Origin: Phycisphaerae bacterium
Lineage (GTDB): Bacteria; Planctomycetota; Phycisphaerae; UBA1845
Direction of reading: 5' to 3'
NCBI GenBank assembly: GCA_029260055.1
Contig: JAJDDX010000379.1
Span: 1-58,362 of the forward strand
DNA: 58,362 bases
Shown here: one piece after another, positions 17,266-20,307 of the stretch
How positions within the stretch are numbered: position 1 is the stretch's first letter
Layout: each line of letters begins with the position of its first letter
Notes under the pieces: generated by a model
Seen by the model: the letters and a program-made list of their open reading frames with translations, nothing else
The model's database searches: none
Told to the model about the DNA's origin: nothing
Translations under genes and position numbers: made by a program

Positions 17266-17345
17266 AATCCCCGGATGCTCTCGGCTAGGATAGTAACCGA
17301 TGCCGGCATCTTTGGTGGACCTTTTTGCGTTTCCGATTGGCCGCG

Positions 17346-18077
17346 ATGTCTGATAACCCGTCACAACTCGCCAGCCCGCTCCCCGATGAGGTTCGGGCGG
17401 CCGTATTCGTCGTCATACCGGCCTATAACGAGGGCCCGTGCCTCGCCTCTGTCGTCGAGCACGTACGGGCACAGTACCCCAACGTGGTGGTGGTCGACGA
17501 CGGGTCGAGCGACGACACCCTCGCGGTAGCCAAACGGTCAGCCACCTACGCCCTCGGGCACATCATCAATCGCGGCCAGGGGGCGGCCCTCCAAACGGGT
17601 ATCGAATTCGCGGTGCGCCAAGGCGCACGGTACATCGTGACCTTCGACGCCGACGGTCAGCATCGCGTGGAGGACATTGGCGTCATCGTCGATCCCATTC
17701 GACGCGGCGCGTGCGACATCACGCTCGGTTCGCGGTTCCTCGACCCGTCGGGCGAGTGCGCGAATATGCCGGCTGTCCGGCGGTTCACGCTACGTCTGGG
17801 CGTCCTGTTCACCCGGCTCGTCAGCCGTGTCAAACTCACGGATGCTCACAACGGACTGCGCGGCTTCTCGCGCGCCGCCGCGGAGAAGATCGACATTTCG
17901 CTCGATCGGATGGCACACGCGAGTGAGTTGATCGACTTCGTCAGGCACTCCGGCTTGCCCTATCGCGAGGTGCCCGTTCAGGTCCGCTATACCGACTACT
18001 CACTCGCCAAGGGCCAATCGTCGCGCAACGCGCTGCGCATCGTGCTGCACTATCTGGTTGGAAGGGTCATGCCATGA
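17346..18077 (+). CDS. Dolichyl-phosphate-mannose-synthase-like glycosyltransferase
   Basis: Soluble GT2 enzyme of about 243 residues, of the type that transfers a sugar to a polyprenyl phosphate. VFVVIPAYNEGPCLASVVEH, NVVVVDDGSSDDT, HIINRGQGAALQTGIEFA and TFDADGQHRVEDI (DADGQH is the characteristic DxD variant) appear in the expected order, followed by DITLGSRFL. The ATG at 17346 is chosen over 17325 because it sits just before the conserved region; no strong ribosome binding site is visible for either. The stop overlaps the start of a DUF2304 gene (ATGA at 18074-18077). This enzyme/DUF2304 pairing is recurrent in bacteria and archaea. Its product could feed the GT-C proteins of this cluster. 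Confidence 0.9.
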   Translation: MSDNPSQLASPLPDEVRAAVFVVIPAYNEGPCLASVVEHVRAQYPNVVVVDDGSSDDTLAVAKRSATYALGHIINRGQGAALQTGIEFAVRQGARYIVTFDADGQHRVEDIGVIVDPIRRGACDITLGSRFLDPSGECANMPAVRRFTLRLGVLFTRLVSRVKLTDAHNGLRGFSRAAAEKIDISLDRMAHASELIDFVRHSGLPYREVPVQVRYTDYSLAKGQSSRNALRIVLHYLVGRVMP

Positions 18078-18613: not shown

Positions 18614-18684
18614 ACTACGCGCTAGCCATGCGCCGCCTTGGGGGGCAAGGGCGCAGAACCGGGGTACGGACCTGGAGGGGAATC

Positions 18685-19662
18685 ATGAAGCTTCGCATGA
18701 ACAGACTATCGGTCGCCGCCCGCGCTGCGCGCCACGCCATACTGGTCGCGGCGATACTGGCCTTCAGCACAGGCAAAGCCATCGCAGCCGAGTTCGACCT
18801 GCTCGTGTCGAGCACCCACACCGACAACGTCCTGCGCTACGACGGCGTCACCGGCGCATACCTCGGCGAGTTTGCCAGCCACCCCGCGCTTCAACAGCCG
18901 CACGGCCTGACCTTCGGCCCGGACAACAACCTCTACGTCAGCAGCACGCTCAACAATGGGGTGCTTCGGTTCGACGGACAGACCGGCACCTTCATCGACA
19001 CATTTACGAGCCAAGGCGCACTCGTCTTTCCGTTCGGCGCGGAGTTCGGCCCGACTGGCGATCTATATGTCGCCAGCGCCGGCACCGACAGCATTCTCCG
19101 CTATGACGGGCAGACCGGCGTCTTTGACGCAACGGTCGACACTGGCGGCCTCCTCGATTTCCCGGAAGGCCTGACCTTCGGCCCCGACGGCCACATGTAC
19201 GTGGCCAGCACCGACGCCAACATGATCCTCCGCTACGACGGGCAGACCGGTGCGTTTATCGACATCTTCGCGAGCGGCGGGATGAACAGGCCCGACGACT
19301 TGGTGTTCGGCCCCGACGGAAACCTCTACGTCAGCGGCGGCTTTTCACACAACATCCTGCGTTTCAACGGCACCAGCGGCGCCTCCATGGGCGTCTTTGT
19401 CCCCGCGTTCAGCAACGGCCTGGCCGGCCCGCGCGGCATGGTGTTCGGCCCCGATGGCCACTTGTACGTCAGCTCGCTCTCCAGCGATAGAGTCCTCCGT
19501 TTCGACGGCGTGACCGGCGCGTCTCTCGGCACATTCGCGAGCGGCGGCGGTCTCGACGGCCCGACGAACCTGGTGTTCACCCCGGAGCCGGCGACGCTCG
19601 GCCTCCTGGCAGGCGGAGCGTTATTGGCGCTTCGTCGTCGACGGCGGCCCGCGGTACGCTAG
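18685..19662 (+). CDS. NHL-type beta-propeller protein with PEP-CTERM tail
   Basis: Secreted protein of about 325 residues with a signal peptide (AILVAAILAFSTGKAIAAEF). It has six repeats of roughly 48 residues, each like GLTFGPDGHMYVASTDANMI followed by LRYDGQTGAF. That is an NHL/SMP-30-like propeller. The C-terminus reads TPEPATLGLLAGGALLALRR followed by more Arg: a PEP-CTERM sorting signal (PEP motif, hydrophobic helix, basic tail), normally processed by exosortase. The ATG at 18685 has GGAGGGG five bases upstream and lies downstream of the extended -10 promoter. It may be a structural or glycan-associated surface protein; no enzymatic motif was seen. No exosortase gene lies in this window. 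Confidence 0.88.
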   Translation: MKLRMNRLSVAARAARHAILVAAILAFSTGKAIAAEFDLLVSSTHTDNVLRYDGVTGAYLGEFASHPALQQPHGLTFGPDNNLYVSSTLNNGVLRFDGQTGTFIDTFTSQGALVFPFGAEFGPTGDLYVASAGTDSILRYDGQTGVFDATVDTGGLLDFPEGLTFGPDGHMYVASTDANMILRYDGQTGAFIDIFASGGMNRPDDLVFGPDGNLYVSGGFSHNILRFNGTSGASMGVFVPAFSNGLAGPRGMVFGPDGHLYVSSLSSDRVLRFDGVTGASLGTFASGGGLDGPTNLVFTPEPATLGLLAGGALLALRRRRRPAVR

Positions 19663-19818
19663 CAAGCCGGTTCCCGCCCGCGCATCGATCGCCCATCTGC
19701 GACCCCCTTGCGTCGTCTCCGCGCGCATCCACCGCCGCTCCGGTTTTCCACCGTCCGCGGGTTTGGTACAGTTCCGCCATCGAACGGATCCTGGGCAACT
19801 GCATTCGGAGGAACTTAC

Positions 19819-20307
19819 GTGAGAAAGCTGTATCCCCTTGCGATGGTGGCGTGCGCACTGGCCGTGACCGGCTGTTCAACGATGAAGGGCAAACCCGCCC
19901 CGAACTTCGAACTGACGGCGCTCGACGGGAAGAGAGTCGAACTCGCGTCCTTCCGCGGGAAACCCGTGCTTCTGGCGTTCTTCGCCGCGGGGTGAGGCCC
20001 CTGCCGTGAGGAGGCTCCTCACCTGAGCAAGATCGTCGAGAAGTACGAGAAGGAAGGCCTCGTTGTCCTGGCCGTCAACGCGTGGGACGAACCGAAGAAG
20101 ACCATCAAGAAGTTCCTCAAAGAGAAGAAGCTCAAGCAGCGCGTCCTGCTCGATGGAAGCGCCGTGGCGGACAAGTACAAGTGCAACGGCATTCCGACCA
20201 CGTTTTGGATCGATGCCAAGGGCATTGTGCAGGACGTAGCCGACGGCTTCAGCGGTCCCGGACCGCTCGAACAGAAAACGGTGCGGCTTCTCAAAGATAC
20301 CGGCTGA
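19819..20307 (+). CDS. Thioredoxin-like (TlpA-like) lipoprotein, probable selenoprotein with UGPC motif
   Basis: Predicted membrane-anchored periplasmic thiol/selenol oxidoreductase, 162 residues if the in-frame TGA at 19993-19995 is read as selenocysteine. A signal peptide with lipobox AVTGC is followed by a redoxin start (GKPAPNFELTALDGKRVELA) and LLAFFAAG. Then comes TGA and GPCREEAPHLSKIVEKY. The TGA (residue 59) replaces the first catalytic Cys of CGPC, giving U-G-P-C. The frame continues intact through GLVVLAVNAWDE, CNGIPTTFWIDAKG and DGFSGPG to a TGA at 20305. A hairpin with a GGC loop lies at a SECIS-like distance after the TGA. The start is GTG, seven bases after GGAGGAA. A nonsense mutation is the alternative, but the exact replacement of the active-site Cys argues for selenocysteine. 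Confidence 0.8.
20006..20022 (+). promoter_or_regulatory. Candidate bacterial SECIS hairpin
   Basis: GTGAGGA (20006-20012) pairs perfectly with TCCTCAC (20016-20022) around the triloop GGC (20013-20015). The loop starts 17 bases after the in-frame TGA and begins with G. Both fit the usual description of bacterial SECIS elements: a stem just after the UGA with a small loop having G in its first two positions. The hairpin lies inside the coding frame, as SelB-dependent elements do in bacteria. Confidence 0.7.

Follow-up and report, generated by a model that had tools for sequence, protein, structure and literature searches.

The window analysed here is a stretch of 58,362 nucleotides in which a plus-strand reading frame runs into a TGA codon at the very place where a thioredoxin-like active site would have its first cysteine. 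The question raised by this locus is whether the TGA is read as selenocysteine (Sec) or marks a damaged gene. With a probability of approximately 0.93, we take it to be a genuine selenoprotein gene, the predicted product being an exported, lipid-anchored thiol-disulfide reductase of the ResA/TlpA type with a Sec59/Cys62 pair.

By read-through translation and full-length homology, the coding sequence extends from position 19819 to 20307 on the plus strand (162 residues, Sec at residue 59), with the TGA at 20305–20307 as the stop codon. A ribosome-binding site, GGAGG (19807–19811, plus strand), was read directly 7 nt ahead of the GTG start codon. The translated frame starts with VRKLYPLAMVACALAVTGC and carries Sec in the context LLAFFAAG-U-GPCREEAPHLSK; with codons counted from the GTG at 19819, codon 59 is found in AAG-U-GPC. 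The Sec-encoding TGA occupies positions 19993–19995, at the first position of U-G-P-C, and the codon of the presumed resolving residue, Cys62, positions 20002–20004 (both on the plus strand). The original prediction of an in-frame TGA on the first Cys of a CGPC motif, followed by a frame open for more than 100 codons, was confirmed, 103 sense codons lying between this TGA and the stop codon. In a mechanical ORF search, the sole product was a 95-residue ORF that starts further upstream and ends at the Sec TGA. Since the standard ORF call stops at residue 58, before the active site, routine annotation would miss or mis-annotate the gene, as had been anticipated, and a redox protein conserved across an entire bacterial group risks being lost in this way. 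The upstream gene (18628–19662) encodes a beta-propeller protein (NHL/Vgb-lyase-like) with a borderline C-terminal PEP-CTERM match.

An ORF call that stops at the TGA, in an assembly fragmented into 500 contigs, could also reflect a pseudogene or a sequencing or assembly error, i.e. a nonsense change in an ordinary Cys-type TlpA gene. The comparison with homologues argues against this. Among the 60 nearest genomes (that of the window included), 26 encode a homologue whose TGA falls at exactly the same codon; these 26 represent the family of the window and a further three families in its order. For the alignment we used 25 of the Sec forms and read the remaining one (from G029) separately; the identity of the 25 to the window protein ranged from 35 to 58%. 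In agreement with the original prediction, residue 59 of the homologues is either TGA-encoded or Cys, and the TGA recurs in close relatives. In the region downstream of the TGA, dN was 0.042 and dS 0.51 for the pair L038/L040, and 0.24 and 1.5, respectively, for L021/L022, whereas synonymous sites were saturated in several of the more distant pairs. That dN is well below dS past the TGA in the closest pairs shows that the read-through protein is under purifying selection.

A tree of 60 sequences did not separate the Sec forms from the Cys forms and requires at least seven changes of label, four of which are forced by strongly supported branches. This pattern fits repeated exchange between Sec and Cys, the direction of which is not given by the tree. 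A profile search of 392 genomes of the phylum revealed further Sec forms, most of them longer proteins, and a scan of named genomes returned one distant homologue only, a Cys form from Chloroflexota.

The original prediction had also placed a 7-bp hairpin with a GGC loop at the right distance after the TGA. The hairpin was found exactly at 20006–20022 on the plus strand, with the arms GTGAGGA (20006–20012) and TCCTCAC (20016–20022) enclosing the loop GGC (20013–20015). The stem is perfect and begins 11 nt past the TGA, and the spacing from the TGA to the loop is 17 nt. When the codons were shuffled synonymously with the protein kept fixed, a perfect stem of at least 7 bp arose in 0.06% of 5000 shuffles. 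The published bSECIS model (PMC13188914) specifies a stem of 4–16 bp, a loop of 3–9 nt with G in its first two positions, a UGA-to-loop distance of 16–37 nt, and an energy of −7.5 kcal/mol or lower. The hairpin (7 bp, 3 nt, GGC, 17 nt) agrees with this model throughout, which bears out the SECIS-like hairpin of the original prediction; its energy varied with the length of sequence folded, from −9.7 to −14.3 kcal/mol. No Rfam element scored above its cut-off near the TGA. In the single sequence, the folding energy was unremarkable: 19% of the synonymous shuffles folded at least as well, the z value on dinucleotide shuffles was −1.5 (not significant), and a longer fold, in which the UGA itself is paired, was more stable when the window sequence was taken on its own, which counts against the hairpin. 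Since the folding energy of the single gene is not significant, the case for the hairpin rests on the comparative evidence.

In 50 Sec-form genes, the stem at the same position, 11 nt past the TGA, retained on average 6.78 of 7 pairs, while the same positions in 10 Cys-encoding homologues formed 3.3 of 7. This loss of pairing in the Cys forms is independent support for an RNA structure. One of the Cys forms, L053, has a nearly identical peptide (CGPCRVEAPYL) and only three pairs, showing that the peptide alone does not impose the stem. Stem pair 4, in which the second base of codon 64 pairs with the synonymous third base of the Pro67 codon, occurs as C-G, A-U, U-A, and G-C across the Sec forms, and stem pair 3 as G-C, A-U, and G-U. 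Among 39 distinct sequences there were 10 double changes at three stem pairs, a number reached by none of 500 shuffles, and the covariation score was 0.143 against an expected 0.055; kinship among sequences can, however, beat such shuffles even where there is no structure. With the closest 25 sequences only, the signal weakened to three double changes at a single pair. The pattern of TGA, 10 nt, and stem was present in 24 of the 60 genomes, and every exact match fell in this gene; the matches with one mismatch were the same palindrome on the opposite strand at the same place, and a reversed control gave one match. A few Sec homologues (L029, L061, and L073) do not have the exact 7-bp register, which counts against the Sec reading. 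Judged from these alignments, the hairpin represents an RNA element conserved in nearly all Sec forms at the same distance from the TGA. For the improvement of SECIS finders, the 50 homologues that contain the TGA and a compact, covarying hairpin make a clean set.

The decoding of UGA as Sec calls for selA, selB, selD, and tRNA-Sec, and all four were found in the genome, as would be expected if the original prediction is right. The same assembly encodes a tRNA-Sec with the anticodon TCA, and selA adjoins selB on contig C365. The selD gene (L082, G000:C276) has an in-frame TGA of its own, in SCAGUAGK, and its product is likely to be a selenoprotein itself. Selenoprotein forms of selD are already known from other bacteria. 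When the 60 genomes were searched, all four parts were found in most of those with a Sec form. In four less complete genomes with a Sec form (G017, G021, G041, and G047; 63–81% complete), at least one part was not found, which may reflect gaps or a stricter search filter; in three nearly complete ones (G002, G020, and G029), one part (selA or tRNA-Sec) escaped detection, probably for the same reasons. For G039, G045, and G049, the search gave no credible selA, selD, or tRNA-Sec, and these genomes also have no Sec form.

An open frame would also result if the whole genome read TGA as Trp, Gly, or another amino acid and Sec played no part. This is the least probable of the alternatives, with hardly any likelihood left to it: the gene itself stops at TGA, neighbouring genes with Pfam domains stop at TGA (17325–18077) as well as at TAG, homologues that lack the TGA have Cys at residue 59, and the genome encodes tRNA-Sec, selA, selB, and selD. 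The pseudogene or error, to which we give nearly as little weight, is opposed by a TGA at the identical codon in 26 genomes, the conserved hairpin, and the purifying selection downstream. Thus, with the TGAs of the homologues, the covarying hairpin, the machinery, and the selection taken together, it is very unlikely that the TGA represents a pseudogene, a sequencing error, or a global reassignment.

The predicted protein begins with a putative signal peptide (19819–19875, plus strand), identified by eye, in which a hydrophobic stretch is followed by a lipobox, VTGC, with Cys19 (19873–19875) as the residue predicted to be lipidated. Also by eye, most homologues were seen to have a GC closing a hydrophobic stretch at the corresponding position, and the lipobox and its counterparts suggest a lipoprotein located outside the cytoplasm. 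In Pfam, the best matches were AhpC-TSA and Redoxin, with a weak match to GSHPx, and the nearest solved structures were the ResA proteins 4nmu and 1st9. Residues 59 (Sec), 62 (Cys), 65 (Glu), and 126 (Pro) were invariant in the 25 aligned Sec forms. They align with the active-site pair of ResA, the Glu three residues past the second Cys, and the conserved Pro. The features of ResA/TlpA-like proteins, namely a thioredoxin-like domain, a CxxC-type motif, and the conserved Pro, were all present, and a thioredoxin fold of the ResA/TlpA type was assigned on this homology, which bears out the thioredoxin-fold claim of the original prediction. An AlphaFold model from the single sequence was poor (mean pLDDT 36).

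The Pfam matches, and the description of a UxxC selenoprotein family as ‘Prx-like thiol:disulfide oxidoreductase’ (PMC13188914, PMC1794560), raise the possibility that Sec is inserted but that the protein acts mainly as a peroxiredoxin-like peroxidase and not as a disulfide reductase. We consider this unlikely, since a UxxC motif whose second Cys is invariant matches the layout of thioredoxin and ResA, whereas Sec-containing peroxiredoxins use TxxU (PMC1088965), and since the nearest solved relatives are ResA proteins and NCBIfam places ResA far above the peroxiredoxins. The likely function is that of a membrane-anchored extracytoplasmic thiol-disulfide reductase with a DsbD-like electron donor. 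The genome encodes a protein with a DsbD-type membrane domain and also ResB-like proteins of cytochrome c maturation.

Strong sequence evidence supports a model in which SelB carrying Sec-tRNA(Sec) binds the hairpin 11 nt past the UGA, so that Sec is inserted at residue 59. The product would then be exported and lipid-anchored via Cys19, with Sec59 and Cys62 acting as redox partners within a ResA/TlpA-type thioredoxin fold. Sec would attack envelope proteins at their disulfides or oxidised thiols, Cys62 would resolve the intermediate, and a DsbD-like membrane protein would re-reduce the pair. The leading candidates for the substrate are apocytochrome c and a partner protein active in the reduction of peroxide or methionine sulfoxide. 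The gene neighbourhood gave no clue to the substrate: the genes flanking the locus were not found within 1.5 kb on either side of the homologues, so a conserved operon was not seen. Surface lipoproteins of pneumococcus, Etrx1 and Etrx2 (PMC3914529), offer an instructive parallel, by analogy, for the candidate substrate: they too are lipid-anchored thioredoxin-fold reductases outside the cytoplasm, with CcdA-linked electron pathways, but they are of the Cys type and have a methionine sulfoxide reductase as their known partner. The finding suggests that these organisms use selenium for redox chemistry in their cell envelope.

Selenoproteins are known from Planctomycetes (PMC4807772), and a survey of the Sargasso Sea reported four ‘thiol-disulfide isomerase-like’ ones (PMC1088965). 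Among the selenoproteins catalogued in a review of 2026 (PMC13188914) are UxxC proteins with PF00578, PF08534, and cd02966 domains. The Prx-like (PF00578), thiol-disulfide isomerase-like (cd02966), and Redoxin (PF08534) families of that review (Table 1 there) share with the window protein, at the domain level, a thioredoxin-like fold, Sec at the first position of UxxC, Pfam domains, and a bacterial SECIS just past the UGA; the window protein, which at this level combines a PF00578 or PF08534 domain with UxxC, differs in being a short, predicted lipoprotein. From the Cys forms ResA, TlpA, and CcmG, with which the active-site pair, the Glu, and the Pro align, it differs in having Sec in place of the first active-site Cys. 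It is not ResA in the strict NCBIfam sense, the model NF002854 giving 99.4 bits against a cut-off of 170. NF041054, a ‘WAxxUGC ResA-like selenoprotein’, is likewise Sec-containing and ResA-like, but the window motif is UGPC and not UGC, and the score was 49.8 bits against a cut-off of 300. No curated NCBIfam model reached its cut-off on this protein.

The reading as a Sec-containing thioredoxin-like lipoprotein was therefore supported by the relatives, the hairpin, and the Sec machinery, the lipoprotein part being suggested by the lipobox. One qualification applies: UxxC selenoproteins resembling thioredoxin, TlpA, or Prx are established, so the window protein adds a lineage, one that no curated NCBIfam model covers at its cut-off, and not a new kind. 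The addition is a subfamily of predicted lipoproteins across one bacterial order with an unusually clear covarying SECIS. We suggest tentatively, at somewhat under even odds, that this Sec-containing, TlpA-like subfamily is undescribed and order-wide, with a near-invariant SECIS, and that Sec is the ancestral state, the Cys forms having arisen by secondary loss. If so, selenium would underlie a share of the thiol redox reactions in the envelope of these bacteria.

Long TlpA-domain proteins from other families of the phylum (L052, L054–L073, and L075–L078, except L061) have TGA at the same position, most of them with the same hairpin, and some of their motifs read UGIC, UGAC, or UGMC. In two relatives, a second, longer TlpA-like protein (L084 and L085; G017:C722 and G011:C139) also has TGA at the first active-site Cys, in the motifs WASWUPPC and WASWUAPC, with a short hairpin of its own directly past the TGA.
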